In this document: piece after piece, positions 11,928-30,148 of the stretch
How the letters are laid out: every line of letters starts with the position of its first letter
Numbering within the stretch: position 1 is the stretch's first letter
Assembly (NCBI RefSeq): GCF_013001025.1
Contig: NZ_CP053021.1
Coordinates: forward strand, 3,562,001 to 3,626,000
Direction: 5' to 3'
Length of the DNA: 64,000 nucleotides
Source: Sphingobium yanoikuyae
Lineage (GTDB): Bacteria > Pseudomonadota > Alphaproteobacteria > Sphingomonadales > Sphingomonadaceae
Position numbers and translations under genes: made by a program
Notes under the pieces: model-generated
Seen by the model: the letters and a program-made list of their open reading frames with translations, nothing else
Told to the model about the DNA's origin: nothing
The model's database searches: none

Positions 11928-11969
11928 ATTGTCTTGTTGTGCGCGGCGATGGTCGGGCTATCTAGGCCG

Positions 11970-12866
11970 ATGATCGATCCCCGCGCGCTTCGCACCTTCC
12001 TCGCCGTCTGCCGTGCCAACTCGATCAGCGGCGGCGCGCGGCTGCTCAACATCTCCCAGCCATCGGTGTCCAATGCGATCGCGCAACTGGAACAGTCGGT
12101 CGGCGCGGCCCTGTTCGCCCGGTCGCGCAGCGGCATCAGCCTGACGCCGGAGGGCGAAGTGCTGCTGCGCCGGGCGGAGGCGGTCGACAGCCTGATCAGC
12201 GGCGCGGAAGAGGAATTGCGGCTGGCGCGCGCGGGCGTGACCGGCCCGCTGCGCGTCGGCGGCACGCCGGGTGCGCTGGTCAGCCTGCTGCCCGACGCAG
12301 TACGCCGGCTGGAGGACAAGATGGGCCATTTCGCGCTGCATGCGGTAGAGCGGCCCGACCATGACCTGGCCGACATGCTGCACCGGGGCGAGATCGAGCT
12401 GGCCTTCGTCACCACGGGGCTGGAGGAGCCGCCCGAGGGGATCGAGGAAATCACCTTCGCGCAGGATCCGTTCGCGCTAGTCGTGGGCCGTCGCAACGAT
12501 CATCTGCCCGCCGAGGTCTCGCTGCGCGACATGATGGCCAAGCGCTGGGTGCTGCCGGAGGCGCGCGGCGCCTTTCGCCGGCAGATCGACGCGCTGTTCA
12601 TGGCGGCCGGCGTGCCGGTGCCACAGGATGTGATCCGCTGCGACTCCCTGCTGACGACCAAAGCGATGGTGCGGAACAGCAGCCGGCTGACCATCCTGCC
12701 GATGAAGGTGGCGGCGGCCGAACTGTCGATCGGCGTGCTGCGCGCGATCGCGATCCGCGAAGCGACATTCCAGCGCAGCATCGGCATCCGAAAGCTGAAG
12801 GACGCGCGCCTGTCGCGGCTGGGCGAGGCGCTGCTGGACATCATGATCCATAGCTCCAAGCTATGA
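11970..12866 (+). CDS. LysR-family regulator, probably of the downstream aromatic/glycoside cluster
   Basis: 298 aa when started at ATG 11970 (IDPRALRTFLAV); ATG 11949 or TTG 11934 would only lengthen the N-terminus. The winged helix-turn-helix is seen in NSISGGARLLNISQPSVSNA, followed by the usual coinducer-binding domain. It ends 80 bases before the catabolic array and reads in the same direction, so it is the obvious candidate regulator, with an aromatic intermediate as the likely effector. It carries no feature that identifies the ligand. Confidence 0.85.
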   Translation: MIDPRALRTFLAVCRANSISGGARLLNISQPSVSNAIAQLEQSVGAALFARSRSGISLTPEGEVLLRRAEAVDSLISGAEEELRLARAGVTGPLRVGGTPGALVSLLPDAVRRLEDKMGHFALHAVERPDHDLADMLHRGEIELAFVTTGLEEPPEGIEEITFAQDPFALVVGRRNDHLPAEVSLRDMMAKRWVLPEARGAFRRQIDALFMAAGVPVPQDVIRCDSLLTTKAMVRNSSRLTILPMKVAAAELSIGVLRAIAIREATFQRSIGIRKLKDARLSRLGEALLDIMIHSSKL

Positions 12867-12946
12867 CGTTCCCAAAAATCATTATTATTCTTGCGTATAA
12901 ATTCGGCGCATAAGGGCATTCAACAAGAGACTTCGGGAGAGCCCTC
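12867..12946 (+). promoter_or_regulatory. probable promoter region of the aromatic/glycoside array
   Basis: This 80-base gap is clearly more AT-rich than its surroundings (ATCATTATTATTCTTGCG, then TATAAAT) and precedes the first catabolic gene, whose GTG start follows GGGAGA. It is the most likely site for a LysR-controlled promoter. I cannot fix the -35/-10 hexamers; a short TGCG/CGCA inverted pair flanks the TATAAAT. Confidence 0.4.
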
Positions 12947-14182
12947 GTGCGGCAGCTGATCCGCAATATTGCGATTTTCGACGGGACCGGCAGTGCGCCC
13001 TTCCCCGGCGCGGTCATGATCGAGGGCGATCGCATCGCAGACATTCTGCGCGACGAAGCCGCGATCGACGTGGCGCAGGCCGACATGGTGATCGACGGCC
13101 AGGGCGCGACGCTGATGCCCGGCATGGTCGACGCCCATACCCATCTGACCTGGGGCAGCTCGGTCGAGAAAATCTATCATCAGTTCATCCTGCCGCCCGA
13201 GGAGCTGAAGGTCGCCGCCTGGCGCAATGCCCGCGTGCTGCTCGACCATGGCTATACCAGCCTCTATTCGGCCGGCGCGCTGGGCGACCAGATCGAACCG
13301 GAACTGGCCCGCGCCATCGCGGCCGGCGAAACCCCCGGCCCGCGCCTGGTGCCCTCCACGCTGGAGCGCAGCCCGGAAGGCGAGGAAGGGGTCGAAACCG
13401 GCGATGTGTTCAACGGGCGGGGGCCCGAAGCGATGCGCGCCTTCGTCGCCTATTGCGCGGCGGAGGGCGTCAAGTCGCTCAAGCTGGTGATTTCGGGCGA
13501 AGATGCGCTCAAGCCCGGATCGTCGCAGGACATTCTCTATACCGACGAAGAGATGATCGCGGCCGGCGAGGCGGCGAAGGACGCGGGCCTGTGGATCGCC
13601 ACCCATGCCTATAGCCCGCGCGCTATCAACCTGGCGCTCGAAGCCGGCGCCCGCATCCTCTATCATTGCTCCTTCGCCGATGACGCGGCGGTCGATGCCA
13701 TGGCGGCGAAGAAGGACGCCATCTTCTACGCCCCCGGTCCCGGCGTATCGGTCGCCGCGCTGGAGGCCAATCCGCCGCCCCATATCAATATGGCGTCGAT
13801 GAAGGCGAGCGCGGCCGAGCGGCTGGAACTGGAAAAGACATTGGTGCCCAAATTGAAGGCGCGCGGCGTGCGCGTCCTGCCCGGCGGCGACTATGGCTTC
13901 CCCTTCAACCCCCATGGCCGCAACGCCCGCGACCTGGAACATTTCGTCACCTATTATGGCTTCACCCCGGCCGAGGCGCTGCATGCCGCCACCATGCTGG
14001 GCGGCGAGCTGATGGATCAGCCCGTCGGCCAGGTGAAGCCGGGCTATCTCGCCGACCTGCTGCTGGTCGAGGGTGATCCGACCACGGACGTCCGCCTGCT
14101 GCAGGATGCGGCCAATATCAAGATGATCATGCTGGGTGGGCGGATGCACAAATCCCCCGTGCCCGAGCCCCTGACGGTCTGA
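12947..14182 (+). CDS. metal-dependent amidohydrolase
   Basis: 411 aa of the prolidase/imidazolonepropionase-like amidohydrolase superfamily. The metal site is visible as HTH (His64, His66), a probable carboxylated Lys179, His220, His240 and Asp315. The start is GTG 12947, supported by GGGAGA six bases upstream. No signal peptide is seen, so it is cytoplasmic. Being first in a run with a FAD monooxygenase, ring-cleavage dioxygenase and acylpyruvate hydrolase, it probably hydrolyses a C-N, C-O or C-C bond in the same aromatic pathway. The superfamily is sure; the reaction is inferred. Confidence 0.8.
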   Translation: MRQLIRNIAIFDGTGSAPFPGAVMIEGDRIADILRDEAAIDVAQADMVIDGQGATLMPGMVDAHTHLTWGSSVEKIYHQFILPPEELKVAAWRNARVLLDHGYTSLYSAGALGDQIEPELARAIAAGETPGPRLVPSTLERSPEGEEGVETGDVFNGRGPEAMRAFVAYCAAEGVKSLKLVISGEDALKPGSSQDILYTDEEMIAAGEAAKDAGLWIATHAYSPRAINLALEAGARILYHCSFADDAAVDAMAAKKDAIFYAPGPGVSVAALEANPPPHINMASMKASAAERLELEKTLVPKLKARGVRVLPGGDYGFPFNPHGRNARDLEHFVTYYGFTPAEALHAATMLGGELMDQPVGQVKPGYLADLLLVEGDPTTDVRLLQDAANIKMIMLGGRMHKSPVPEPLTV

Positions 14183-14198
14183 CCGGAAAGACGCTTTC

Positions 14199-15707
14199 AT
14201 GTTCGATGTTGCGATCATCGGCTGCGGGCCGGTGGGGGCCTTTGCGGCCAATTTACTTGGGAAGGCGGGCGTCTCGGTCCTGGTGATCGAGCGCGAGGCC
14301 AACCCCTATCCCCTGCCCCGCGCGGTCCATCTGGACCATGAGATGATGCGCCTGTTCCAGTCGGCCGGCGTCATCGACCGGGTCGCCCCGGACATGCGCG
14401 ATACCGAAGGCCATCTGCACGTCGGCGCCGATCATGGCGTGATCCGCTATATGGGCACGGTCGGCCGCCCCCGCCCCTTCAGCTGGTCCAACGATTATTT
14501 CTTCTACCAGCCCGAACTGGAAGACCATCTGCGCGATGCGCTGGACGTCTATCCCAATGTCGAGCTGTCGCTGGGCACCGCGTTCGAGGCGCTGGCGCAG
14601 GACGAGGACGGCGTCACGCTGACGCTGCGGTCGGACGCCGGCGAGGAGCAGGTCCGCGCCCGCTATGTCGTCGCCTGCGACGGCGCCCGCAGCGCGGTGC
14701 GCAAGGCGCTCGACATCGGCCTGGATGATCTCGATTTCGAGGAACCCTGGCTGGTGGTCGATGCCGAGGTCGATGGCCCGGTCCGCTTCCCCGACCTGTG
14801 GGGCGTGCCGCAAGCGGCCGACCTGCAGAAATTGTCGGTGATGATGTGCGATCCCAAGCGCCCGGCCACCATCGTGCCGGGGCGCGGCAATCATCGCCGC
14901 TGGGAATTCATGCTGCTGCCCGGCGAAGACGACCAGGCGATGATGCAGCCAGACGCCGTGGCCGCGCTGGTAGCCCCTTATCTCGACGGCGTGCCGCACC
15001 AGGTGGTGCGCGCCGCCACCTATCGTTTCCATGGCCTGATCGCCGAGCGGTGGCGGCAGGGCGGCGTCTTCCTGGCCGGCGATGCCGCGCACCAGACGCC
15101 GCCCTTTTTCGGCCAGGGCATGTGCCATGGCCTGCGCGATGCCGCGAACCTGGCCTGGAAGCTGGAGCTGGTGCTGGCGGGCAAGGCGCCCGAAACGCTG
15201 CTCGACAGCTATCAGCCAGAGCGCGATCCCCATGTCCGCGCCGTCATCTCCGCCGCCGTGGGCGCGGGTCGCTATATCTGCGTGCTCGACCCCGACGCCG
15301 CCACCGCGCGCGACCATCAGCTGCGCGAAGCGGCCAAGGGCGCCCAGAGCGGCACGGCCGCCGACCTGATCCCCGCCATCGCCACCGGCATCATCGCCAC
15401 CGGAACGCCGGGCGCGGGCGAACGCTTCATCCAGCCGCGCGTCGGCGACCGGCTGCTGGACGATGTGACCGGCGATGGCTGGCGCCTGTTCACCCGCCAG
15501 CCGGTTGTCGGCGGTGACGTAGCCGTCGTCGATGTGGCGGACCTGGGCGATGACGGTCATGTCGCCGACTGGCTCGACGCGCGCGGCGCCGAGGCGGTGC
15601 TGGTCCGCCCCGACCATTATGTCTTCGGCACTGGCGCGCCCGCAGAGCTGATCGCCCGGCGCGACGCGCTGATCGCCGGCACCGCCCGGCAGGAGATTGC
15701 CGCATGA
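14199..15707 (+). CDS. FAD-dependent aromatic monooxygenase (MhpA/FdeE-like)
   Basis: 502 aa class A flavoprotein hydroxylase. It has the FAD-binding GxGxxG at residues 8-13, the DG motif at 161-162 (ACDGARSAVR) and the GD motif at 294-295 (LAGDAAHQTPPFFGQGM). A thioredoxin-like C-terminal extension, as in MhpA-type hydroxylases, fits the length. These enzymes use NAD(P)H and O2 to hydroxylate phenolic rings, often just before extradiol cleavage, which suits the VOC dioxygenase two genes downstream. Naringenin 8-hydroxylase FdeE of Herbaspirillum belongs to this family as I recall. The substrate here is not proven. Confidence 0.85.
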   Translation: MFDVAIIGCGPVGAFAANLLGKAGVSVLVIEREANPYPLPRAVHLDHEMMRLFQSAGVIDRVAPDMRDTEGHLHVGADHGVIRYMGTVGRPRPFSWSNDYFFYQPELEDHLRDALDVYPNVELSLGTAFEALAQDEDGVTLTLRSDAGEEQVRARYVVACDGARSAVRKALDIGLDDLDFEEPWLVVDAEVDGPVRFPDLWGVPQAADLQKLSVMMCDPKRPATIVPGRGNHRRWEFMLLPGEDDQAMMQPDAVAALVAPYLDGVPHQVVRAATYRFHGLIAERWRQGGVFLAGDAAHQTPPFFGQGMCHGLRDAANLAWKLELVLAGKAPETLLDSYQPERDPHVRAVISAAVGAGRYICVLDPDAATARDHQLREAAKGAQSGTAADLIPAIATGIIATGTPGAGERFIQPRVGDRLLDDVTGDGWRLFTRQPVVGGDVAVVDVADLGDDGHVADWLDARGAEAVLVRPDHYVFGTGAPAELIARRDALIAGTARQEIAA

Positions 15708-16132
15708 CCCTCTCGCTCGCGCAGGCCCGTGCCATCATCGACGCCGCGCTCGCCAAGGCGCGCGCCGATGGCGCCCAGCCGCTGGCCGTCATCATATTGG
15801 ATGCCGGCGCCCATCCGGTCGCCTTCGCCCGCGAAGATGGCGCCAGCCTGTTCCGTTTCGACATCGCGAAGGCCAAAGCCTCGGGTGCGCTGGGGATGGG
15901 CGCGGATACGCGGGTGCTGGCCACCCGCGCCGCGTCCAACCCTGTCTTTTTCCAGAGCATAGCCGCCGCCACCGGCCAGATGGCCTTTTCGCCGGGCGGC
16001 GTACTGATCCGCGATGCGGACGGCGCGCTGGTCGGCGCGGTCGGCATCAGCGGCGATACCGGCGAGTGCGACGAGGCCTGCGCCATCGCCGGCATTGACG
16101 CCGCCGGACTTTTCCACGGAGACAGAAAATGA
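15704..16132 (+). CDS. GlcG/HbpS-family protein (DUF336)
   Basis: 142 aa with the family pattern: an N-terminal helix, PLAVIILDAGAHPVAF, GGVLIRD and the C-terminal GAVGISGDTGECDEA. It overlaps the monooxygenase gene by 4 bases and the dioxygenase gene by 4 bases, so it belongs to the operon. Members bind haem or small cofactors, or are of unknown function, and they recur in aromatic and glycolate operons. No signal peptide is present. Its role in the pathway is unknown; a scaffold or isomerase-like task is a guess. Confidence 0.78.
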   Translation: MTLSLAQARAIIDAALAKARADGAQPLAVIILDAGAHPVAFAREDGASLFRFDIAKAKASGALGMGADTRVLATRAASNPVFFQSIAAATGQMAFSPGGVLIRDADGALVGAVGISGDTGECDEACAIAGIDAAGLFHGDRK

Positions 16133-17049
16133 AGCTGCGCAGCATCGAACTGGCGCTGCCCCATGCGGGTGAGGCCGCCGCCTTCCTGACCGACATCTGG
16201 GGCATGGCCCCGGCGGCGCAAGAGGGCGAGACCCATTATCTGCGCGGATCGGGCAGCTATCCCTATCTCGTGGCGCTGACGGAATCGGCGGACGCCTATG
16301 TCCGCTCGACGACCTTCGTCTGCACCGCCGACCGGTTGGAGCAGCTGAAGCGCAGCGTCACCGCCGCCGGCCTGCCCGCGACGCCGACTGTGTCGGAAGA
16401 TTTGGGCGGCGGCCATGGCATCATCGTCGAACTGGCCGAGGGCGAATTGCTGCGCTTCCTGGTCGATTCCGAGGAAGTCGCACCGATCGCGGGCGCCGAC
16501 CTGCCGGTGAAGCTGACCCATGTCGTCTTCAACAGCGCCGACGCGGAGGCAACCGGCCATCTGGTCGAGCAGGCGCTGGGCTTTCGCGTCTCGGACCGGA
16601 CCAAGGGCATGGTGTTCGTGCGCTGCAATGACTCGCATCATTCGACCGCCTTCGCCCGCGCCGGCTTCCCCTCGCTCAACCATATCGCCTTCGAAATGGC
16701 GGACATGGACGCAGTGATGCGCGGCATCGGCCGGTTGCGCGACCATGACATGGTCCCCGCCTGGGGGCCGGGTCGCCATGGTCCGGGCGCCAATGTCTTT
16801 GCCTATTTCATCGCCCCCTTTGGCCCGGTGATCGAATTTTCGACCGCCGTGGAAAAGGTGGCCGAGGATTATCAGGCCGGCGCGCCGGAGGACTGGACCT
16901 GGCCCGAGGGCCGGATCGACCAGTGGGGCATGTCCGACAAGGACTTCGCCGGCCTGCGCGCCGCCGAGGAGAAATTCCGCCATCGCCGCGACTGGGACGC
17001 CCAGCCCCTGATCCAACCGCAAGACCTGATCAACGAGGAACAAGCCTGA
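16129..17049 (+). CDS. VOC-superfamily extradiol ring-cleavage dioxygenase
   Basis: 306 aa with two vicinal-oxygen-chelate modules, like catechol 2,3-dioxygenases. The Fe(II) site is preserved: His131 (LTHVVF), His185 (LNHIAFEM) and Glu236 (PVIEFS), with a conserved GRH at 215-217. The PROSITE-type extradiol histidine near Asn222 is replaced. The enzyme should open a hydroxylated aromatic ring made by the upstream monooxygenase, giving a product for the following acylpyruvate hydrolase. It overlaps both neighbours. Dioxygenase activity is well supported; the ring is unknown. Confidence 0.82.
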   Translation: MKLRSIELALPHAGEAAAFLTDIWGMAPAAQEGETHYLRGSGSYPYLVALTESADAYVRSTTFVCTADRLEQLKRSVTAAGLPATPTVSEDLGGGHGIIVELAEGELLRFLVDSEEVAPIAGADLPVKLTHVVFNSADAEATGHLVEQALGFRVSDRTKGMVFVRCNDSHHSTAFARAGFPSLNHIAFEMADMDAVMRGIGRLRDHDMVPAWGPGRHGPGANVFAYFIAPFGPVIEFSTAVEKVAEDYQAGAPEDWTWPEGRIDQWGMSDKDFAGLRAAEEKFRHRRDWDAQPLIQPQDLINEEQA

Positions 17050-17879
17050 TGCGCTATGTCAGTTTCCGCCGTCCCGACGGCACCCCCAGCTTCGGCCGGA
17101 TCGAGGGCGAGACGATCGTCGAGCTGGCGACCGATGCGGCGCCCAGCCTGAAGGCCGCGCTGACCGACGGCAGCCTGTCGGGCCTGGCCGATGGCGCATC
17201 CTATGCCGCCGCCGATGTCGTGCTGCTGCCGGTGATCCCCGACCCCGCCAAGATCCTGTGCGTCGGCCTCAACTATGCCGAGCATGTCAAGGAAACCGGC
17301 CGCGAGCAGAAGGCGCATCCAGCGATCTTCGTGCGCTATGCCGACAGCCTGATCGCCGACGGCCAGCCGATGGTGAAGCCGGCCGTGACCGAACGCTTCG
17401 ACTATGAAGGCGAACTGGCGCTGGTGATCGGCAAGCCCGCGCACAAGGTCGCGGCCGCCGACGCCTGGGACTATGTCGCCGGCTACGCCGCCTTCAACGA
17501 TGGCAGCGCGCGCGACTGGCAGCGCCACAATATCCAGTTCACGCCGGGCAAGACCTTTCCCGGCACCGGCGGCTTCGGCCCGGCGCTGGTGACGCCCGAA
17601 GAGATTGACGATCTTGCCGCGCTGCGCGTCCAGACCCGCCTCAATGGCGAACTGGTGCAGGACCAGCCGGTCAGCGACATGATCTGGGATATTCCCACGG
17701 TCATCGAATATGTCACCGCCTTCACGCCGTTGAGCCCCGGCGACGTGATCGCCACCGGCACGCCCGGCGGCGTCGGCGATAAGCGCACCCCGCCGCTCTA
17801 CATGAAGGCCGGTGACAAGGTCGAAGTGACCATCGGCACCATCGGCACGCTCAGCAACCGCATCATCGACGAACAATAA
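17049..17879 (+). CDS. fumarylacetoacetate hydrolase-family acylpyruvate hydrolase/hydratase
   Basis: 276 aa starting at ATG 17049, which overlaps the dioxygenase stop codon by one base. Family hallmarks are VGLNYAEH, the metal-binding FDYEGELALVIG and the C-terminal GDVIATGTPGGVG. These enzymes cleave C-C bonds in acylpyruvates or hydrate 2-oxo-pentenoates, the usual step after meta-cleavage. With the preceding genes it forms a hydroxylase, dioxygenase, hydrolase cassette. Hydrolase and hydratase cannot be told apart by sequence alone. Confidence 0.85.
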   Translation: MRYVSFRRPDGTPSFGRIEGETIVELATDAAPSLKAALTDGSLSGLADGASYAAADVVLLPVIPDPAKILCVGLNYAEHVKETGREQKAHPAIFVRYADSLIADGQPMVKPAVTERFDYEGELALVIGKPAHKVAAADAWDYVAGYAAFNDGSARDWQRHNIQFTPGKTFPGTGGFGPALVTPEEIDDLAALRVQTRLNGELVQDQPVSDMIWDIPTVIEYVTAFTPLSPGDVIATGTPGGVGDKRTPPLYMKAGDKVEVTIGTIGTLSNRIIDEQ

Positions 17880-17914
17880 CAATCATCAACCCGCATACCG
17901 GGGGAGGACAGACC

Positions 17915-20200
17915 ATGCGTAACATCCACATCACCATTGCGGCCCTCGCCAGCGCGAGCGCCATCGCGATCGCCGCGCCGGCCTTTGCACAGGACGCGCC
18001 CGCGCCCGAACAGGCGGCACAGCCGGCGGACAATTCGGACATCATCGTCACCGCCCAGCGCAAGGCGGAAAAGGTGACCGAGGTGCCGATCTCCATCACC
18101 GTGGCCAATGCCGCCCAGCTGGAACGGCAGCAGGTCAACACGATGAACGACCTCAACCGCATCGCGCCAAGCCTGGAAATCCAGCAGGCGCCGGGCCAGA
18201 ATACCGGCGGCGGCGGGTCGATCCGCGGCATCGGCACCCAGACCTTCTCGGCCGGCGCCGTCGCATCGGTCGGCGTGGTCGTCGACCAGGTGAGCCAGGG
18301 CAATGCCAATATCTCCGACCTGTTCGACGTCAGCCGGATCGAAGTGCTGAAGGGACCACAGGGCACGTTGTTCGGCCTCACCACATCGGCCGGCGTCATC
18401 AACATCACCACCAATGCGCCCGATCCGACCGGCTTTGCCGCCCGCGTCCGCACCGAATTGTCCGACGCCGGCACGCTGGGGTCGAAGTTCGGCAACCAGA
18501 TCGTGCAGGGCATGGTCAACATCCCGCTGGCCACCAACGCCGCGATCCGCCTGTCGGGCGTCGCCAATTTCCGCCAGGGGCCGAACCGCAATGCCAGCAC
18601 CGGCGACTATAATGATACCGATCGCTACGGCATTCGCGGCCGCTTCCTGTGGGAGCCGACCGATCGCCTGACCGTCAATGTCATCGGCGACTACACCAAG
18701 AGCCGGATCGAGAATGGCGGCGACTTCTTCACCTTCGTCAAGACCAGCGGTCCGGGCACGGCGCTGGGTGGCCTGCTGGCCGACACCACCGGCATCACCG
18801 CCCGGCTTGCCAGCTGCGGCGTGACGCCGGGCGAGGGCAATCGCGACTATTGCAGCGACGACAGCTATGTGGGCCATACCGAAAATTATGGCGGATCGCT
18901 GCAGGTCGATTATGAGGCCGATCCCTTCACCCTCACCTCCATCACCGCCTATCGCAAGTCGAACGAGACCGGCTATGGTGCGGCGACCAACGTGTTCCGT
19001 GGCGATCCGCTGGAATTGCAGGTCGCCAATGGCCCGACCAACCGGCGCCTGAGCCTCTTCACCCAGGAGTTGCGGGTCAGCTCGCCTGCCGACCAGTTCC
19101 TCGAATATACCGCTGGCGTCTTCTATTCGAACCAGAAGCAGACCCGCGATCCCGAAACGCTGGCCGTGTCGGTCGTACCCTTCCCCGGCCTCGTCATTCC
19201 TATCGTGCGCAACCCCGGCGCCGACATCGACATCCAGGATGAATCGCTCGCCGTATTCGGCCAGGGCACCTTCCACCTGTCTCCGGCGCTGCGGCTGATC
19301 GCCGGCGGCCGCTACACCACCGACCGGCTGTCGATGGACCGCTACGACTATTTCACCCCGGCCGATCCGTTCAGCCGCACGGTGCTGGACGTCCAGAAAT
19401 TCTCCTGGCGCCTGGGCGCACAATATGACCTGGCCAATGACACCATGGTCTATGCGACTGCCTCGCGCGGGTTCAAGGGCGGGCAGATCGCCATCCCCTC
19501 GGCGCCGGCCAAGCCCTTCGTCGTGCAGCCGGAAATCCCGACCGCCTATGAACTGGGCCTCAAGAGCACGTTGTTCGGCGGCTGGGTCGCAGACCTCAAT
19601 GTCTTCTACAGCAAGATCAAGAATTTCCAGGCGCAGCAGTGCACGGTGGACAGCACCGCGGTCATTTCCTGCGTCCAGACCAACATCAACGGCGTGCAGT
19701 CGCGCGGCGCGGAAATCAACTTCTTCGGCAAGGTCTTCGATGGCCTGTCGCTCAACACCGGCTTCATCTATGCCAAGGCGACCTATCCGGGCGGCTTCAT
19801 CGGCACCGATGGCACCAATATCGGCGGCAGCCAGCTCGCCTATGCGCCCAAGTACAAGTTCACTTTGTCGGGCGAATATGAAGCGCCGGTCACGAGCCGC
19901 CTGAAGGGCTTCCTGGCTGCGGACACGGTGTGGAAGTCAAAGGTGCGCTACGAAGCCAATTCGAACGACGAAACCACCTTCCGTTCGCACTGGCTGGTCG
20001 GCGGCCGCATCGGCCTGCGCACCGATGATGATCGCTACAGCGTCGCGATCTTCGGTCGCAACCTGTTCAACGTGCATGAGCCTTCGCTGATGCAGAGCGA
20101 CTTCCCCTACACCACCGACCAGGGCGAGCAGAATATCGGCGCCATCTATGGTCCGCAGTCCTTCCGCCAGATCGGCATCAGCCTGGACGCGAAATTCTGA
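17915..20200 (+). CDS. TonB-dependent outer-membrane receptor of the aromatic/glycoside cluster
   Basis: 761 aa. A signal peptide ends near AFAQ (residue 26), a TonB-box-like segment DIIVTAQRK follows, then a plug domain with RIEVLKGPQGTLFG and a 22-strand barrel ending in the typical aromatic C-terminus (LDAKF). GGGGGAGG before ATG 17915 is a strong ribosome binding site. It resembles the sphingomonad receptors that import bulky organic nutrients rather than siderophores. Sitting between the ring-degradation genes and the glycosidases, it most likely imports the glycoside. A rho-independent terminator follows, so later genes may depend on read-through or their own promoter. Confidence 0.88.
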   Translation: MRNIHITIAALASASAIAIAAPAFAQDAPAPEQAAQPADNSDIIVTAQRKAEKVTEVPISITVANAAQLERQQVNTMNDLNRIAPSLEIQQAPGQNTGGGGSIRGIGTQTFSAGAVASVGVVVDQVSQGNANISDLFDVSRIEVLKGPQGTLFGLTTSAGVINITTNAPDPTGFAARVRTELSDAGTLGSKFGNQIVQGMVNIPLATNAAIRLSGVANFRQGPNRNASTGDYNDTDRYGIRGRFLWEPTDRLTVNVIGDYTKSRIENGGDFFTFVKTSGPGTALGGLLADTTGITARLASCGVTPGEGNRDYCSDDSYVGHTENYGGSLQVDYEADPFTLTSITAYRKSNETGYGAATNVFRGDPLELQVANGPTNRRLSLFTQELRVSSPADQFLEYTAGVFYSNQKQTRDPETLAVSVVPFPGLVIPIVRNPGADIDIQDESLAVFGQGTFHLSPALRLIAGGRYTTDRLSMDRYDYFTPADPFSRTVLDVQKFSWRLGAQYDLANDTMVYATASRGFKGGQIAIPSAPAKPFVVQPEIPTAYELGLKSTLFGGWVADLNVFYSKIKNFQAQQCTVDSTAVISCVQTNINGVQSRGAEINFFGKVFDGLSLNTGFIYAKATYPGGFIGTDGTNIGGSQLAYAPKYKFTLSGEYEAPVTSRLKGFLAADTVWKSKVRYEANSNDETTFRSHWLVGGRIGLRTDDDRYSVAIFGRNLFNVHEPSLMQSDFPYTTDQGEQNIGAIYGPQSFRQIGISLDAKF

Positions 20201-20212
20201 TCCTCCTGGGGC

Positions 20213-20243
20213 GGGGCGCCGCTGGTGGCGTCCCGTCTTTTTT
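20213..20243 (+). terminator. rho-independent terminator after the TonB receptor gene
   Basis: GGGGCGCC at 20213-20220 pairs with GGCGTCCC at 20227-20234 (8 bp, one G-T pair, 6-base loop). It is followed closely by six T residues at 20238-20243. It lies 13 bases after the receptor stop codon and 28 before the next start, so it may lower expression of the glycosidase half of the array. Confidence 0.75.
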
Positions 20244-20270
20244 CCTAATCCTTCTGGCCAGAGGGGACAT

Positions 20271-21119
20271 ATGAAGCCGATCAGGGACGCCATCGCCGCA
20301 CTGGGCACCGATCTGGGACCGGACATACTCGGCCAGTGCCGGGCGCTGTTCGATGCCGAGCAGGCGGCGCTGGCGGCGGCGGTGCCAATGACGCAGGCGG
20401 ACATCGCCTATGGCCCGGACACCCGCCACCGGCTCGACCTCTATGCCCCCAAGGGTGATGCCCCTGCCCCCATTCTGGTCTTCGTCCATGGCGGCGGTTT
20501 CCTGAAAGGCGACAAGGGCAGCGCCGACGCCTGGCCCAATGCCAATGTCGGACGGATGGCGGCGGAGGCCGGTTTCCTGGGCGTCGTCATCAATTATCGC
20601 CTCGCCCCCGACCATGGCTGGCCGGCCGGGGCGGAAGATGTCGCGGCCGTCGTCGCCTGGCTCAAGGATCATGCCGCCGAACATGGTGGAGATGCCGATC
20701 GCATCGTCCTGATGGGCACGTCGGCCGGCGCCGTCCATGTTGCGGGCTATCTGAAACTGGCCGGATCGGACGCCGTTCGCGCCGCCGTGCTGCTGTCGGG
20801 TCTCTATGGCTATACCCCGCTCGATCAACGCGACATGCTCTATTATGGCGAGGCTTCGCTCTACCCGAACCGCATGCCGCTGGAAGCCATTGCTTCGACC
20901 GACCTGCCGCTGCTGATCGCCTGCGCCGAGTTCGACCCGCCCCGCTTCCAGGCCGAGTTCCTGAGCCTGTTGCAGGACCGGCTGGTGCGCCATGGCGCCA
21001 TGCCGCGCGCCTTCATCCAATCGGGCCATAATCATTATTCCATGGCCATGCATCTGGGCACCGCCGATCGGCGGCTGTTGCAAGAAATCTGCGCCTTCGT
21101 GCGCGAAACCACTGCCTGA
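20271..21119 (+). CDS. alpha/beta-hydrolase esterase (HSL-type)
   Basis: 282 aa from ATG 20271, which follows AGAGGGGACAT. It has the oxyanion-hole motif HGGGF, the nucleophile elbow GTSAGA, an acid candidate in CAEFDPP and a histidine near the C-terminus (GHNHYS): a full hormone-sensitive-lipase-type catalytic set. No signal peptide is present. It is the first gene after the terminator and precedes two glycosidases. It may release acyl or phenolic ester groups that decorate plant glycosides; the role is inferred. Confidence 0.82.
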   Translation: MKPIRDAIAALGTDLGPDILGQCRALFDAEQAALAAAVPMTQADIAYGPDTRHRLDLYAPKGDAPAPILVFVHGGGFLKGDKGSADAWPNANVGRMAAEAGFLGVVINYRLAPDHGWPAGAEDVAAVVAWLKDHAAEHGGDADRIVLMGTSAGAVHVAGYLKLAGSDAVRAAVLLSGLYGYTPLDQRDMLYYGEASLYPNRMPLEAIASTDLPLLIACAEFDPPRFQAEFLSLLQDRLVRHGAMPRAFIQSGHNHYSMAMHLGTADRRLLQEICAFVRETTA

Positions 21120-21143
21120 CAATTATAATAGGAGAGACGGAAC

Positions 21144-22448
21144 ATGCTGGATCGCCGCACCCTTCTGGCTACCGGCGCCGCGCTGATGGCCGCCCCTGCC
21201 ATCGCCGCGCGCAAGAGCGCCAACCCCAATTTCCCCAAGAGCTTCTACTGGGGCGCTGCCACCGCACCGCATCAGGTCGAGGGCAATAATATCGCCAGCG
21301 ACTTGTGGTTCGTGGAGAATCAGCAGCCGACCGTCTTTGCCCAGCCTTCGGGCGACGCCTGCAACAGCTTCGCGCTGTGGGAAACCGACCTTGATCTGGT
21401 CAAGAATATGGGCCTCAACGCCTATCGCTTCGGCATCGAATGGGCACGGATCGAGCCGGAAAAGGGCCTCTTCTCCCAGGCGATGCTCGATCATTACAAG
21501 GCGGTGATCGACGGCTGCCATGCCCGCGGCCTGGCCCCGATCGTCACCTTCAGCCATTTCACCGCGCCGCGCTGGTTCAGCGCGCAGGGCGGCTGGACCA
21601 ACCCGGAAAGCGCGCAGCTTTTCGCCCGCTATTGCGACAAGGCGATGCGCGCGCTGGGCCAGGGCATCGCCAGCGCCATCACCCTCAACGAACCCAATAT
21701 CCTGCTGCTCCTGAAGCCCATGCTGCCGCCGCAGGTGTGGGACATCCAGAAACTGACGCTGGAAACCGCCGCCAAGCGGCTGGGCGTGCCCAAATATGTC
21801 TGTGTCAATGTCGCTGGCTTCGACGATCTGCCCGCGCTCCAGACCGGCCTCGAAGCGGCGCACAAGGCCGGCAAGGCGGCGATCAAGGCGGTGCGCGGCG
21901 ATCTGCCGGTCGGCTTCTCGCTGGCGCTGATGGACGATCAGGCGGTCGGCGCCCATTCGGTGCGCGACGCCATGCGCAAGCAGCTTTACGGCAACTGGCT
22001 GGAGATCGCGAAGGGCGACGATTTCATCGGCGTCCAGAATTATGAGCGCGCCCTGTGGGGCGACAAGGGCCGCCTGCACGCGCCCAAGGGATCGGCCGTC
22101 AACTGGTCCGGCACCGAAGTCTGGGCGCCCTCGCTTGGCGGCGCGGTCCGCTTTGCCCATGAAGCGACCGGCGTGCCGATCCTGGTGTCCGAACATGGCG
22201 TGGGCAGCGACGATGATGCGGTTCGCGCGAAGTTCATTCCCGAAGCGCTGGCGGGGCTCAAGGCCGCGATCGACGATGGCGTGCCGGTGCTGGGCTATTG
22301 CCACTGGTCGCTGCTCGACAATTTCGAATGGATCTTCGGCTACAAGCCCAAATTCGGCCTGCACAGCGTCGATCCGGTGACCTTCGCCCGCACGGCCAAG
22401 CCCAGCGCCGCCGTCTATGGCGCAATCGCTCGCCGCAACGCGCTCTGA
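21144..22448 (+). CDS. exported GH1 family beta-glycosidase
   Basis: 434 aa. The N-terminus (DRRTLLATGAALMAAPAIAA) is a twin-arginine-like signal, so the enzyme is probably periplasmic. GH1 features are FYWGAATAPHQVEG, the acid/base Glu183 in TLNEP and the nucleophile Glu350 in VSEHG (usually TENG), plus the late HWSLLDNFEW. It should remove beta-linked glucose or a similar sugar. Together with the GH106 rhamnosidase it could strip a rhamnosyl-glucose disaccharide. The family is certain; aryl-glycoside specificity is inferred. Confidence 0.88.
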   Translation: MLDRRTLLATGAALMAAPAIAARKSANPNFPKSFYWGAATAPHQVEGNNIASDLWFVENQQPTVFAQPSGDACNSFALWETDLDLVKNMGLNAYRFGIEWARIEPEKGLFSQAMLDHYKAVIDGCHARGLAPIVTFSHFTAPRWFSAQGGWTNPESAQLFARYCDKAMRALGQGIASAITLNEPNILLLLKPMLPPQVWDIQKLTLETAAKRLGVPKYVCVNVAGFDDLPALQTGLEAAHKAGKAAIKAVRGDLPVGFSLALMDDQAVGAHSVRDAMRKQLYGNWLEIAKGDDFIGVQNYERALWGDKGRLHAPKGSAVNWSGTEVWAPSLGGAVRFAHEATGVPILVSEHGVGSDDDAVRAKFIPEALAGLKAAIDDGVPVLGYCHWSLLDNFEWIFGYKPKFGLHSVDPVTFARTAKPSAAVYGAIARRNAL

Positions 22449-22451
22449 TCG

Positions 22452-22889
22452 ATGGCCACGCCGTCCCTGTCGCTCGGGCGCGAAGCCGCCATCGGCTTCG
22501 CCATCAATGCCGTGCTCAGCATCGCCTTCTTCCTGGGGATCTTCGGCCTGGCCGTCCGGCCGCTCAGCTGGGCAGCGCCCGACGCGCTGGCGATCGACTT
22601 CGTGCCGCAGAGCATCGCCGTCGCTTTGATGAGCGCGCTGGTGCCCGCCCTGCTCGTCCGCAAGCGGTTGGCGCTGGCCGTTCCGGTCCGGACGATTATC
22701 TTGCGGGCGCTGGGCTGCGCCCTCGTCGGGGCGGTGCTCGGCGGCGCGCTCGCGGCGCTGGCACAGGCCGGGGGCGATGCGTCGATCGCCTGGGGCGCGG
22801 CGCTCGTGCTCAAGCTGCTCTATGGCGGCCTGCTCGGCGCCGCGATCACGACCCTGGTACTGAAAAAGATAATGAGAAGGATGGCCTGA
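22452..22889 (+). CDS. small integral membrane protein, unknown
   Basis: 145 aa with about four hydrophobic segments (near residues 12-35, 48-66, 84-106 and 114-135) and a basic C-terminus (KKIMRRMA). It starts three bases after the GH1 stop codon and overlaps the next gene by one base, so it is part of the operon. I recognise no family; the size resembles small inner-membrane proteins sometimes found beside sugar catabolism genes. A transport or accessory role is only suggested by context. Confidence 0.65.
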   Translation: MATPSLSLGREAAIGFAINAVLSIAFFLGIFGLAVRPLSWAAPDALAIDFVPQSIAVALMSALVPALLVRKRLALAVPVRTIILRALGCALVGAVLGGALAALAQAGGDASIAWGAALVLKLLYGGLLGAAITTLVLKKIMRRMA

Positions 22890-23815
22890 TGATCCGATCG
22901 ACGATCGCGCTGCTGGCGCTGCTGGCGGCCACGTCCGCCGCCGCGCAGGATGTCCGGATGGCGCCGGTCGCCCCGGTCGATCAGGCCGATGCCATCCCGC
23001 TCTGGCCTGATCAGCCCGCCCCGGCCAAGGGCGCTGACGAACAATGGTCGACCATGCATGTCCAGATCGGCGCCAACAGCATCGACAATATCATGGTCCG
23101 CAATGTCGTGCGGCCGACCATCACCCCCTATCTGCCCGATCCGGCCAAGGCGACCGGCGCGGCGGTGATCGTCGCTCCGGGTGGCGCCTTCCTCTCGCTG
23201 TCGATGACCGGTGAGGGCAGCGACGTCGCGCGCTGGCTGGCCGATCATGGCGTGGCCGCCTTCGTCCTCAAATATCGGCTGAATGAAACGCCCCGCGACG
23301 ACCGGACCTTTCTGGGTGTCATGGGCCAGCGTTTCGCCGATGCCGCAAAGCCCGGCGCACAGGCCGAGGTGAAGGAACCGCGCGCCACCCAGGATGCGCT
23401 CAAGGCATTGGACATGGTCCGCGCCGATGCAGCCCGCTTCCATGTCGATCCCGCCCGGGTCGGCATGATCGGCTTTTCCGCTGGCGCGATGACCACCCTG
23501 AACGCCGTGCTGGAGGGAAAGCCCGCCCAGCGCCCCGCCTTCATCGGCTATATTTACGGCCCGATGCTGGCGCCCGCCGTCCCGGCCGATGCGCCGCCGA
23601 TGTTCAACGCCATCGCCATGGATGACGGCCTGTTCAAGGGTCAGGGCTTCGCCATCGTCGAAGCCTGGCGCCAAGCAAAGCGGCCGGTCGAGCTGCACGC
23701 CTATGAGCGGGGCGATCATGGCTTTGGCGCCGGTCGCCCCGGCACCACAACCGCGCTGCTGCTGCCCGAATTCCTCGCCTGGATGGATATGCGCGGCCTG
23801 CTCGCCGCCCGCTGA
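22889..23815 (+). CDS. exported alpha/beta hydrolase (acetyl-xylan/feruloyl esterase-like)
   Basis: 308 aa from ATG 22889. A signal peptide ends near AAAQD (residue 20). Next come APGGAF as oxyanion region, the nucleophile motif GFSAGA and a histidine in GDHGFG. This pattern is typical of exported carbohydrate esterases often annotated as dienelactone hydrolase-like or acetyl-xylan esterase. It overlaps the membrane protein gene and lies 18 bases before the rhamnosidase gene. De-acylation of the imported glycoside in the periplasm is the likely job; the acyl group is unknown. Confidence 0.78.
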   Translation: MIRSTIALLALLAATSAAAQDVRMAPVAPVDQADAIPLWPDQPAPAKGADEQWSTMHVQIGANSIDNIMVRNVVRPTITPYLPDPAKATGAAVIVAPGGAFLSLSMTGEGSDVARWLADHGVAAFVLKYRLNETPRDDRTFLGVMGQRFADAAKPGAQAEVKEPRATQDALKALDMVRADAARFHVDPARVGMIGFSAGAMTTLNAVLEGKPAQRPAFIGYIYGPMLAPAVPADAPPMFNAIAMDDGLFKGQGFAIVEAWRQAKRPVELHAYERGDHGFGAGRPGTTTALLLPEFLAWMDMRGLLAAR

Positions 23816-23833
23816 TTGTCTCAAGGATAGCCC

Positions 23834-26800
23834 ATGACCCGTAAAGCCCTGCGCCTCGCCGCCCTGCTCACCTGCGCCTCGCTCGCCATGCCCGCCCAGG
23901 CCGACGACCTGGCCGACGGCTTCAACAATCCGCCCCAGTCGGCCCGGCCGCGCGTGTGGTGGCACTGGCTGAACGGCAATGTGACCAAGGACGGGATCGA
24001 AAAGGATCTCGACTGGCTGGCGCGCATCGGCATTGGCGGGGTGCAGAATTTCGACGCCAATCTGCAGACGCCGCAGATCGTCAAGGAACGGCTGGTCTAC
24101 ATGACCGACGGCTGGAAGGACGCCTTCCGCCACGCCGTCCAGACCGCCGATGCCAAGGGGCTGGAATTCGCCATCGCGGCGTCGCCGGGCTGGAGCGAGA
24201 CCGGCGGCCCCTGGGTCAAGCCGCAGGATGCGATGAAGAAGCTGGTCTGGGCGCTGACCGAGGTCGAGGGCGGCCAGCGGGTCAAGGGCGCCCTGCCCAC
24301 CCCGTCCAATGTGACCGGCGCCTTCCAGAGCGCGAAGTTCAGCGATCCGCTGGCGGGCGACGCGGAGATAACGGACCAGCCGCGCGCCTATGGCGAGGCG
24401 CGGGTGCTGGCCTATCCGATTGCAGCGGCACCCTTGCCGACGCCCCGCATCCTTGACGCCAATGGCCAGCCGATCGCGGGCGCCGCCGCGCTGGGCGATA
24501 GCGATCTGGAAACCGTGGCCCAGATGGCCAAGGGCGGTGCGGCGCATCCCGGCACACTGATCCTCGACTATGGCAAGCCCGTCACGGTGCGATCGGCCAG
24601 CCTGTTCGTGCCCCATGCCCGGCCGCCCTTCGGTGATCCCGCCTATCGCCCGACGATCGAGGCGGAAACGGCGCAGGGCTGGCAGCCGCTCGGCCGCTTC
24701 TCGCTGACCGAAGTCGCCTCCACCACCAGCTTTGCGCCCGTCACGGCGCAGCGCTTCCGGCTGGTCCTGTCGCCCAATGATGCCGCCAAGTCGCCGGGCC
24801 TGGGCGATGGCGCACCCGGCGCGGTGATGATCGACGTGTTCGGCCGCCCGGCCAGCCCGACCCTGGGCATTGGCGACCTGCGCCTGTCGGCCGAGGCGCG
24901 GATCGACCAGTTTGAAGCGAAGGCCGGCTATGCCATCGCCCCCGATTATAACCGTTTGGATATGGGTCCGGCCGATGCGCCGGCGATCGATCCGGCCAGG
25001 GTTATCGACCTGACCGACCGGCTGCGCCCCGACGGCACGCTCGACTGGACCGCGCCCAGGGGAACGCGCTGGCGCATCGTCCGCATGGGCTGGTCGCTGA
25101 CCGGCAAGACCAACCACCCCGCCACGCCCGAAGCCACCGGGCTGGAGGTCGACAAATATGATGCGGCCGCCGTGCGCCGCTATCTCGAAACCTATCTCGC
25201 CATGTATCGCGATGCGGTCGGCGCCGACTGGATCGGCAAGAAGGGCATCAGCGCGCTGCTGACCGACAGTATCGAGGTGGGCGCGTCCAACTGGACGCCG
25301 CGCATGGTGGAGGAGTTCAAGGCGCGGCGCGGATATGATCCGGTCCCCTTCCTGCCGACGCTGACCGGCGCGGTGGTGGGATCGGCGGCGCGCAGCGACG
25401 CCTTCCTGCATGATTATCGCCAGACCCTGGCCGACCTGCTGGCCGACGCCCATTATGGCACGGTGGCCAAGGTCGCGCATGAGCATGGCCTGACCGTCTA
25501 TGGCGAGGCGCTGGAAAATGGCCGGCCGGTGCTGGGCGACGACCTTGCCATGCGCGCGCATACCGACGTGCCGATGGCGGCGATGTGGACCTTCAACCGC
25601 GGCAGCGCGCCGCGCCCGACGCTGATCGGCGACATGAAGGGCGCGGCGTCGGTCGCCCATATCTATGGCCAGAATATCGTGTCGGCCGAAAGCATGACCT
25701 CGGCCTTCGCGCCCTGGGCCTTTGCCCCGGCGGACCTCAAGCGCGTGATCGACCTGGAATTCGTGTCCGGCGTCAACCGGCCGATCGTCCACACCTCCGT
25801 CCACCAGCCGGTGGATGACAAGGTGCCGGGCCTCAGCCTCATGATCTTCGGCCAATATTTCAACCGCCACGAAAGCTGGGCCAATATGGCCAAGCCCTGG
25901 GTCGACTATATGGCGCGCACCGGCTTCCTGTTGCAGCAGGGCCGCGACCATGCCGACATCGCCTATTTCTATGGCGAGGATGCGCCGATCACCGCGCTGT
26001 TCGAGCATGGCGTGCCGGCCGACCTGCCCAGCGATTATGCCTATGACTTCGTCAATGCCGAGATTTTGGCGACCAAGGCGTCAGTGCAGAATGGCGACCT
26101 GATCGCCGGCAAGGCCCGCTACGAGGCACTGTATCTGGGCGGATCGAGCAAGGTGATGACCCTCGCCACGCTGCAGCGCATCGCCGCGCTGGTCGAGGCT
26201 GGCGCCACCCTGATCGGCACGGCACCCGACCGCGCGCCCGGCCTGCAGGATGATCCCGCCGCCTTCCGCGCGCTGGTGGCGAAACTGTGGAGCGGCCAGC
26301 CGGTCGGCAAGGGCAAGGTGATCGCCAGCACCGATGTCGACGCCGCGCTCGCCGGCACGGGCGTCGGCGCCGATTTCCGCGTGACCGGCAGCGGCGATGC
26401 CGGCGCCTATCGCTTTCTCCACCGCGCTTTGCCCGATGGCGACCTCTATTATGTGACCAATGGCAAGGCCCAGGCCGAACATGTCGAAGCGCGCTTCCGT
26501 GTCACCGGCCGCCAGCCGGAAATCTGGCGCGCGATCGACGGCAGCGCCGCGCCGCTATCCTACCGGACCGAGGGCAGTGACACGGTCGTCCCGCTCGATG
26601 TCGGGCCGGAGGATGCCTTCTTCATCCTGTTCCGCAAGCCGGCGCAGACCCCCAGCCGGACGATCGCGCCGGCGGCCGTAAAGCAGGTCGCCACCCTGGC
26701 GCAGCCCTGGACCGTGCGCTTCCAGCCGGGTCGCGGCGCGCCAGCCGAGATTGCGATGCCGACGCTGACGGCGCTCGACAAGAGCAGCGATCCGGGCGTG

Positions 26801-27163
26801 CGCTATTTCTCCGGCGAGGCGACCTATGCCAGCAGCTTTACGCTGCCCAAGGGCGCCAGGCCCGGTGCGCCGCTGTGGCTTGATCTGGGCAGCGTCGGCG
26901 ATGTCGCGGAGGTGCGGGTCAATGGCCAGGTCGCGGGCACAAGCTGGTTCGCCCCCTATCGGCTGGACGTCGGCAGGCTGGTGAAGCCGGGCCGCAACGC
27001 GATCGAGGTGAAGGTCGCGAACCTGTGGGTCAACCGCCTGATCGGCGACCAGCAGCCCGGCGCGGACAAGATCACCTTCACCGCCGCCCCCACTTATCGC
27101 CCCGATGCGCCGCTGCGTCCGTCGAGCCTGATCGGGCCGGTCACGCTGTCGGCGGAACAATAA
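23834..27163 (+). CDS. exported GH106 alpha-L-rhamnosidase
   Basis: 1109 aa with a signal peptide ending near AQADD. The start of the mature protein (FNNPPQSARPRVWWHWLNGN) and the following IEKDLDWLARIGIGG are characteristic of family GH106. The C-terminal ~120 residues form a galactose-binding-like beta-sandwich (LWLDLGSVGDVAEVRVNG). GH106 enzymes of Sphingomonas and Novosphingobium (about 1100 aa) remove terminal alpha-L-rhamnose from flavonoid glycosides such as naringin and rutin. Catalytic glutamates cannot be assigned by eye. It is the last large gene of the array. Confidence 0.85.
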   Translation: MTRKALRLAALLTCASLAMPAQADDLADGFNNPPQSARPRVWWHWLNGNVTKDGIEKDLDWLARIGIGGVQNFDANLQTPQIVKERLVYMTDGWKDAFRHAVQTADAKGLEFAIAASPGWSETGGPWVKPQDAMKKLVWALTEVEGGQRVKGALPTPSNVTGAFQSAKFSDPLAGDAEITDQPRAYGEARVLAYPIAAAPLPTPRILDANGQPIAGAAALGDSDLETVAQMAKGGAAHPGTLILDYGKPVTVRSASLFVPHARPPFGDPAYRPTIEAETAQGWQPLGRFSLTEVASTTSFAPVTAQRFRLVLSPNDAAKSPGLGDGAPGAVMIDVFGRPASPTLGIGDLRLSAEARIDQFEAKAGYAIAPDYNRLDMGPADAPAIDPARVIDLTDRLRPDGTLDWTAPRGTRWRIVRMGWSLTGKTNHPATPEATGLEVDKYDAAAVRRYLETYLAMYRDAVGADWIGKKGISALLTDSIEVGASNWTPRMVEEFKARRGYDPVPFLPTLTGAVVGSAARSDAFLHDYRQTLADLLADAHYGTVAKVAHEHGLTVYGEALENGRPVLGDDLAMRAHTDVPMAAMWTFNRGSAPRPTLIGDMKGAASVAHIYGQNIVSAESMTSAFAPWAFAPADLKRVIDLEFVSGVNRPIVHTSVHQPVDDKVPGLSLMIFGQYFNRHESWANMAKPWVDYMARTGFLLQQGRDHADIAYFYGEDAPITALFEHGVPADLPSDYAYDFVNAEILATKASVQNGDLIAGKARYEALYLGGSSKVMTLATLQRIAALVEAGATLIGTAPDRAPGLQDDPAAFRALVAKLWSGQPVGKGKVIASTDVDAALAGTGVGADFRVTGSGDAGAYRFLHRALPDGDLYYVTNGKAQAEHVEARFRVTGRQPEIWRAIDGSAAPLSYRTEGSDTVVPLDVGPEDAFFILFRKPAQTPSRTIAPAAVKQVATLAQPWTVRFQPGRGAPAEIAMPTLTALDKSSDPGVRYFSGEATYASSFTLPKGARPGAPLWLDLGSVGDVAEVRVNGQVAGTSWFAPYRLDVGRLVKPGRNAIEVKVANLWVNRLIGDQQPGADKITFTAAPTYRPDAPLRPSSLIGPVTLSAEQ

Positions 27164-28677: not shown

Positions 28678-28697
28678 GGAATTTTCTCCATCTAAAG

Positions 28698-28814
28698 CCC
28701 CTCCCTGGAAGGGAGGGTTGAATAGAGACACCTGTCTCTATTCAAGGGTGGGTGCCTCCGAAGGAGGCTCGCTACGCTCGCACCCACCCCCGGCCCCTCC
28801 CTGGAAGGGAGGGG
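28698..28814. repeat. multi-hairpin palindromic repeat between ligB and ligC
   Basis: The 117-base element has four stacked palindromes. CCCTCCCT-GGA-AGGGAGGG (28699-28717) comes first. A 13-bp perfect hairpin with a 2-base loop (28718-28745) follows. Third is GGGTGGGTGC/GCACCCACCC (28746-28755 and 28780-28789) enclosing CCTCC/GGAGG. A second copy of the first palindrome, one pair longer, ends it (28794-28814). It has no coding capacity and looks like a sphingomonad interspersed REP-type element. In the lig transcript it would form a strong structure between ligB and ligC. Confidence 0.8.
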
Positions 28815-28836
28815 AGGCAGCAGTGCGAACCGAAAT

Positions 28837-30089
<1,253 letters not shown>

Positions 30090-30108
30090 CTCATCCTCTC
30101 TTGGCATC

Positions 30109-30148
30109 CATCCCCCGGCCCTTCCTTCCAACAAAGGACCGGGGGATG
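30109..30148. repeat. inverted repeat in the ligJ-ligA spacer
   Basis: CATCCCCCGGCCCTT (30109-30123) and AAGGACCGGGGGATG (30134-30148) pair over 14 of 15 positions around a 10-base loop. It lies 19 bases upstream of the ligA start on the transcript. It has no T-run, so it is more likely an mRNA stability or processing element than a terminator. Confidence 0.65.

Follow-up and report, generated by a model that had tools for sequence, protein, structure and literature searches.

Why a sphingomonad should encode exported glycosidases directly alongside the enzymes of an aromatic ring-degradation cassette is the question raised by an array of twelve genes in Sphingobium yanoikuyae. The array occupies positions 11970-27163 of a 64,000-nucleotide stretch (contig NZ_CP053021.1, positions 3,562,001 to 3,626,000), hereafter called the window. 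With a probability of about two in three, we consider it to be a self-contained utilization locus for flavonoid-like rhamnosylated plant polyphenols of the naringin, rutin, or neohesperidin dihydrochalcone type that would provide for uptake, deglycosylation, and ring cleavage. The observations behind this proposal are gene content, intact catalytic motifs, synteny, the relation to the rhamnosidase RHA-P, the occurrence of the cluster in two forms, a shared regulatory box, and an adjoining set of lig genes. From these we infer which class of substrate is used, in what order the reactions run, and what each enzyme of the locus does. Overall, the locus is real and conserved and its substrate class is strongly indicated, with the amidohydrolase module left unexplained.

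All twelve genes are open on the forward strand in the order given by a first-pass annotation of this DNA, as confirmed by reading frames and by matches to Pfam and curated models. The series begins with a LysR-type regulator (11970-12866; Pfam HTH_1 and LysR_substrate), which has syntenic matches in 14 other loci. The ring-degradation genes follow, encoding the metal amidohydrolase AmhX (12947-14182; Amidohydro_1), an MhpA-like class A FAD monooxygenase, or FMO (14199-15707; NF004829, 490 bits against a cut-off of 390), an HbpS/GlcG-like small protein (15704-16132; PF03928), a type I (VOC) extradiol dioxygenase of subtype A (16129-17049; Glyoxalase, 122.9 bits to PDB 3b59), and an FAH-family hydrolase (17049-17879, scanned as 16923-17879; FAA_hydrolase, with PDB relatives 6j57, 8sky, and 1gtt). 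Next come a TonB-dependent receptor (17915-20200; plug and barrel domains), the alpha/beta hydrolase EstA (20271-21119, scanned as 20148-21119; BD-FAE/Abhydrolase_3), a beta-glucosidase-type GH1 enzyme (21144-22448), a small membrane protein without a Pfam match (22452-22889), a second alpha/beta hydrolase, EstB (22889-23815), and an exported GH106 alpha-L-rhamnosidase (23834-27163; PF17132, 1008 bits). Neighboring genes are separated by -4 to 80 bp, with five of the 11 gaps being overlaps or at most 3 bp and the other six measuring 16 to 80 bp. Gene GC content (0.64-0.70) is similar to that of the remainder of the window. The gene set of the first-pass annotation thus stood. Two of its details did not, as the first esterase (EstA) has no signal peptide when the N-terminus is judged by eye, and the hairpin it had placed at 20213-20243 lies at 20208-20239. 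A histidine kinase and response regulator upstream of the array were considered as members of the unit and rejected, because neither was matched in the 17 stretches scanned.

The strongest link to a known substrate comes from the rhamnosidase, which is the sole PF17132-family match in the 5.94 Mb genome. Its best solved relative is PDB 6q2f, at 1317.5 bits over 25-1107, making it a full-length GH106 enzyme of the RHA-P kind. Three fragments of 6q2f match the GH106 of the Novosphingobium sp. PP1Y cluster letter for letter and, from strain, family, and fragment identity, it follows that 6q2f is RHA-P of this strain. The window enzyme is 55-56% identical to the PP1Y protein over its full length. 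RHA-P has been listed as a GH106 rhamnosidase (PMC6828813), and the cloned PP1Y rhamnosidase hydrolyzes naringin, rutin, and neohesperidin dihydrochalcone (PMC6710449); here and below, statements on published work refer to the portions of each cited paper that were available. Activity on flavonoid rhamnoglucosides has been published for RHA-P only (PMC6710449). Furthermore, the surroundings of RHA-P match all twelve window genes. LysR, AmhX, FMO, HbpS, VOC, FAH, EstA, GH1, and EstB are 56-77% identical, and the receptor (28%) and small membrane protein (41%) are more distant. The PP1Y locus differs from the window in its gene order. It also contains L-rhamnose genes and encodes a P450, a LigAB-like dioxygenase, and a regulator of the AraC type. 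No paper on the PP1Y catabolic genes around RHA-P was found in searches of the listings and passages of an open-access library, the original RHA-P papers not being among those read. In the portions available, RHA-P has so far been presented as a biocatalyst for flavonoid glycosides, and the locus gives it a likely physiological role.

The first-pass annotation called for a search for the same synteny in other sphingomonads, and the set indeed recurs largely intact at 13 other loci. These are found in Sphingobium sp. V4, TomTYG64, TomTYG65, and RAC03, N. resinovorum SA1, Novosphingobium sp. PP1Y, and the genomes designated G171, G340, G288, G325, G029, G045, and G217, giving 14 glycosidase-bearing clusters with the window. 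In plasmid records, the GH106 and VOC queries also match the same neighborhoods. Among 249 genomes of the family, the VOC gene (E<=1e-40) is present in 12 and GH106 (E<=1e-100) in 19, and they occur together in six compared with 0.9 expected (hypergeometric probability 6e-5 with the window's own genome and 4e-4 without it, kinship being ignored). The two genes lie less than 10 kb apart in five of these six, and in the sixth (G025, a 380-contig assembly) they are on separate contigs. Six other VOC-carrying family genomes have no such GH106, and their VOC proteins are only 34-36% identical. The FMO query matches 10 of 397 genomes at E<=1e-150, eight of which have GH106 in the cluster. As for the other two, the G303 contig stops after the receptor and the G025 pieces are on different contigs.

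Individual components differ in their constancy. FMO is 60-86% identical among the glycosidase-bearing clusters of both forms described below, and the HbpS/GlcG gene is present in 13 of the 14 (not seen in G045). The receptor is variable (27-73% identity, often 27-32%), and EstB was not seen in the SA1 and G288 clusters. The small membrane protein was seen in 10 of the 14, being absent from view in TomTYG64, TomTYG65, G288, and G340, and its position shifts between clusters.

FMO, VOC, GH1, and AmhX carry residues expected for catalysis or metal binding. FMO (502 residues) retains its GxGxxG and GDAAHQTP motifs. The VOC protein has an intact 2-His-1-Glu facial triad of type I dioxygenases (H131/H185/E236) when aligned with homoprotocatechuate 2,3-dioxygenase, whose triad positions we presumed for this assignment, and it falls in clade A of our tree with support of 99/95. 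AmhX, which we take to be a cog1228-type amidohydrolase, has a metal-binding HxH at 64/66 along with H220 and H240. For FAH, a role as a rhamnose-pathway hydrolase was rejected given 120.6 bits to 8gsr versus 183 for 6j57. GH1 has the acid/base and nucleophile glutamates in its TLNEP (180) and SEHG (349) motifs and scores 192.9 bits with PF00232, although it falls below the cut-off of the GH1 beta-glucosidase equivalog model (212.9 of 478.5). Judged by eye, its N-terminus (MLDRRTLLATG) resembles a Tat export signal and that of EstB likewise looks exported. EstB is weakly similar to the pectin acetylesterase PaeX, with a score under the PaeX cut-off.

The glycosidase-bearing clusters come in two forms that share FMO, FAH, EstA, GH1, and GH106. 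Form A, marked by AmhX together with VOC subtype A, comprises 11 clusters (the window, the six named strains, G171, G340, G288, and G325). The three form Q clusters (G029, G045, and G217) are without AmhX, and their VOC proteins are 37-44% identical to that of the window. Adjoining the VOC gene in form Q is a bicupin gene; among proteins of solved structure, its product is closest to quercetin 2,3-dioxygenases (129.8 bits to 8hfb and 125 to YxaG). The AmhX and quercetinase sets were never found together in the clusters examined (Fisher 0.003, kinship ignored). Including G303, G025 (which rests on two contigs), N. aromaticivorans, and ES2-1, AmhX accompanies VOC subtype A in 15 of 15 loci, and it is found in none of eight loci with the other VOC subtype. 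Four of these eight have a quercetinase (G029, G045, G217, and Alloyangia) and four do not (Falsirhodobacter, R. binae, Bosea, and Massilia). In Alloyangia pacifica, a quercetinase-like cupin, alpha/beta hydrolases, FMO, FAH, and VOC form a similar set, and the annotation shows no glycosidase in its vicinity. Within the order, the quercetinase homologue is rare, occurring in one of 396 genomes at E<=1e-60 (G029 and G217 are presumably outside this sample).

Quercetinases convert quercetin to a depside, and cleavage of the depside ester yields protocatechuate and a phloroglucinol carboxylate. In form Q, the quercetinase would make the depside and EstA would release these two products, with FMO, VOC, and FAH then degrading the phloroglucinol carboxylate. 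The sister clusters thus resemble the quercetinase pathway in having the homologue next to the common FMO, FAH, and EstA genes, whereas the window has AmhX and the other VOC subtype in that place. Because FMO is common to both forms, the same ring is suggested to be its target in form A, and it seems reasonable to infer that AmhX and its co-inherited VOC subtype handle a different opening of the aglycone. Perhaps AmhX replaces the quercetinase and, together with its VOC subtype, splits the skeleton of a flavanone, dihydrochalcone, or flavone by hydrolysis, either ahead of A-ring cleavage or following it. Hydrolysis of a C-C bond or lactone would be a new activity among cog1228 amidohydrolases, and the two modules would be swapped like cartridges, depending on the flavonoid class, while the regulator and glycosidases provide a common chassis. 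We regard this specific proposal as tentative and somewhat doubtful.

For the window, the following route can be envisioned. The TonB receptor would import the glycoside, EstB would strip acyl decorations, GH106 would remove alpha-L-rhamnose, and the exported GH1 would remove beta-glucose. The aglycone might then be opened or split within the cell by AmhX and EstA. FMO is the proposed hydroxylase of a resorcinol- or phloroglucinol-type A-ring or a fragment bearing it, the VOC dioxygenase would carry out extradiol fission of the hydroxylated ring, and FAH is proposed to hydrolyze the resulting acylpyruvate. A B-ring fragment could drain as protocatechuate into the adjoining lig pathway, and free rhamnose would take a non-phosphorylative route via a distant L-rhamnonate dehydratase. 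The entire set might be controlled by LysR acting at an ATAG-N7-CTAT box.

This box lies before the amhX gene as the palindrome CATAG-N7-CTATG (12849-12865, forward strand), which has the T-N11-A form of LysR boxes and is the single exact match in the window. Of 15 loci that carry this LysR, 14 have the core pattern between the regulator and the gene that follows it, as an exact copy in 13 and a relaxed one in G340, whereas G325 has none. It also precedes AmhX in ES2-1 and, in relaxed form, in N. aromaticivorans. It is conserved in both forms. Each of the three form Q clusters has the box a second time, in the spacer between divergent genes ahead of VOC and the quercetinase (exact in one cluster and relaxed in two), such that the box fronts both operons. 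The relaxed pattern has scattered further matches elsewhere in the loci.

After the receptor stop codon is a hairpin with a T-run (20208-20239, forward strand; z -2.74) that had been proposed to terminate transcription and split the locus into two expression halves. Strong hairpins of changed sequence recur in seven of the 12 receptor-EstA spacers (window, V4, RAC03, TomTYG64, TomTYG65, G340, and G288), and they are missing from those of G325, G171, G217, and G045 (G029 was not judged). A clear T-run is present only in the window and TomTYG65. Moreover, the gene after FAH encodes EstA in both N. aromaticivorans (60%) and ES2-1 (63%) and, judged by this arrangement, EstA is a catabolic core gene although it is located beyond the hairpin. 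With the T-run mostly lacking and a core gene on the far side, the case for two expression halves is weak, and we read the hairpin as a putative mRNA 3'-end stabilizer or partial terminator.

Directly downstream of GH106 is a set of protocatechuate 4,5-cleavage genes (27736-36025, mixed strands) that the first-pass annotation had missed. On the reverse strand are ligC (27736-28731), ligB (28837-29685; 457.5 bits to 1b4u_B), ligA (29685-30134), ligJ (30174-31196), a DUF1932 gene (31193-32089), and a LysR gene separate from that of the array (32154-33314). The forward strand carries ligK (about 33485-33928; no other RraA-like gene is present in the genome), ligU (from about 34100 to 35141; 4-oxalomesaconate tautomerase), and ligI (35138-36025). 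Curated models identify ligA, ligB, and ligU, whereas ligC, ligJ, and ligI were assigned by Pfam and position. This set resembles the Sphingobium lig pathway and sits immediately beside the array, but it has its own LysR and no exact copy of the array's box. Next to the clusters of PP1Y (76% and 89%) and G288 (71% and 80%), there are likewise matches to ligU and ligI. Between the PP1Y cluster and its ligI/ligU genes (stretch L002, 26387-31254) are the AraC regulator, the P450, and the LigAB-like dioxygenase (42% to LigB of the window); these perhaps form a gallate-type branch. A second TonB receptor gene (36182-38251) comes after the window lig set.

Rhamnose genes are also found with some clusters. 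The PP1Y stretch opens with genes for RhaT, an LldD-type protein, RhaK, a RhaD-dehydrogenase, and RhaI (RhaD and RhaI by curated models), and in G340, RhaI, RhaD, RhaK, and RhaT are encoded beside GH106. Searches of the window genome with PP1Y-type RhaI and the aldolase domain gave no match; one of the two was run without a positive control, though the same RhaI does find G340 by tblastn. A PP1Y-type phosphorylative pathway was thus rejected for this strain, whose genome instead has an L-rhamnonate dehydratase (768 bits; cut-off 393) located some 0.9 Mb from the array. The earlier suggestion that import, deglycosylation by GH1 and GH106, and ring cleavage belong to one unit is thus supported by synteny with RHA-P, by the quercetinase genes of the sister clusters, and by the finding that two clusters contain rhamnose genes and three have lig genes as neighbors.

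An alternative is that the array is an fde/ifc-type operon in which FMO is FdeE, VOC is FdeC, and an intact flavanone is 8-hydroxylated before its A-ring is cleaved. The published fde (naringenin, Herbaspirillum seropedicae) and ifc (isoflavones, Variovorax) pathways proceed by C8 hydroxylation and A-ring cleavage (PMC11069340, PMC11303751), so the reaction classes and the pairing of an FAD monooxygenase with a VOC dioxygenase are the same. We named a set of fde-like loci from the published descriptions of FdeC, FdeD, and FdeE with Massilia as the proxy and no Herbaspirillum sequence compared; it comprises 80 of 396 relatives from the genome-contig scan, none named Herbaspirillum. A short FAD monooxygenase with an fde-like VOC is present in 69 of the 80 and a Rieske protein in 73, and Massilia putida also has the monooxygenase and VOC. 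This trio fits the published FdeE, FdeC, and FdeD (PMC8552027, PMC11069340). Against the Massilia proxies, the window VOC is 36% identical over 126 residues only and the MhpA-like FMO only 25%, and the fde-like VOCs form a separate deep branch (100/100). Furthermore, none of the twelve genes encodes a Rieske partner, which FdeD is (PMC8552027), no full-length fde-like counterpart was found in the window's own genome, and the available portions of the fde and ifc papers mention no glycosidases. On these grounds, with Herbaspirillum compared by description only, the likeness to the fde operon put forward in the first-pass annotation did not hold and orthology was rejected. Still, a Massilia putida plasmid (L003, 10498-24162) carries a window-type cassette next to an fde-like operon, and this species may have two parallel routes for cleaving flavonoid rings, such that the two pathways may be related in substrate. 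In addition, seven of the 80 fde-like loci (L019 at 7806-9621, L031, and L035 in Nitrospirillum; L040, L050, L051, and L064 in Pseudomonas) have a distant AmhX relative (30-32%) near an HbpS gene (46-53%), hinting that this pair works together in fde-like pathways. These relatives speak for the fde/ifc alternative, which we judge unlikely, and they would also fit the proposal that AmhX splits a flavonoid skeleton.

Two further explanations concern the substrate itself. A phenylethanoid or hydroxycinnamoyl glycoside of the verbascoside type, composed of rhamnose, glucose, and a phenolic ester, could be cut by GH106, GH1, and the two esterases, with the phenols passing to the cassette and lig genes. 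FAH resembles HpaG and VOC weakly resembles HpaD, and caffeate leads to protocatechuate and lig. However, the hydroxytyrosol moiety would need no monooxygenase, and the quercetinase of the sister clusters points to flavonols, making this substrate improbable. The other possibility is that a rhamnosidase locus for a pectin-type polysaccharide or saponin merely neighbors a separate aromatic operon. Several observations accord with this or weigh against a flavonoid glycoside locus. GH106 is without the VOC in 13 of 19 family genomes and G204 carries GH1, the receptor, and GH106 without a ring-cleavage cassette, so the sugar part is used in other settings too. The catabolic core occurs without these glycosidases within 14 kb in N. 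aromaticivorans and ES2-1. Arabinofuranosidase and GH43 genes adjoin the RAC03 cluster and an alpha-L-fucosidase gene that of G045, EstB is weakly pectin-acetylesterase-like, and the hairpin separates the halves. A Sphingobium GH106 also acts on steroidal saponins (PMC10653915). This last case is of interest for TomTYG64 (L120), where the cluster lies between P450/ferredoxin (10737-12252) and 3-oxosteroid dehydrogenase (30428-34922) genes. On the other side, largely the same gene set is kept at 14 loci in several genera, GH106 is visible in eight of 10 FMO genomes with contig ends cutting the other two, no polysaccharide lyase is among the twelve genes, and EstA, past the hairpin, belongs to the catabolic core. 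Unrelated neighbors seem improbable.

Other points also count against the flavonoid glycoside proposal. The best PDB relatives of AmhX (Arg carboxypeptidase, prolidases, and ochratoxinase) are peptide and amide hydrolases. The form Q quercetinase query, which does find G045, has no match in the window genome, and thus flavonol opening of the quercetinase type is unlikely in this strain. Adjacent lig genes are seen in only three of the 14 clusters, with none in the stretches of 20 to 47 kb read for the other 11. Searches of an open-access library, the original RHA-P and fde papers not being among those read, gave no growth, expression, or enzyme data on the catabolic cassette. Finally, in five loci from Rhizobium, Bosea, Variovorax, and Rhodobacterales (L122 at 7919-15427, L123, L125, L126, and L143), FMO and FAH, with VOC in four, are accompanied by TRAP, TTT, or MFS transporters in place of glycosidases. 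The TRAP or TTT transporters beside rhizobial relatives of the FMO-VOC-FAH trio suggest a small-acid substrate there.

If the flavonoid glycoside proposal is true, one LysR-controlled sphingomonad locus takes a plant glycoside from the outer membrane to central metabolism, by chemistry that differs from that of the two A-ring pathways published so far (fde and ifc). The two interchangeable aglycone modules would then offer a testable prediction of the flavonoid class used by each strain, and AmhX is singled out as an amidohydrolase with probably new chemistry.

A minor observation concerns the wider surroundings. A valine-catabolism-like trio of genes (acyl-CoA dehydrogenase, enoyl-CoA hydratase, and 3-hydroxyisobutyrate dehydrogenase) lies at 38942-42071 of the window, 12 kb downstream of the array, and a trio of the same type is located directly upstream of the cluster in TomTYG65 (L005, 3695-6834).

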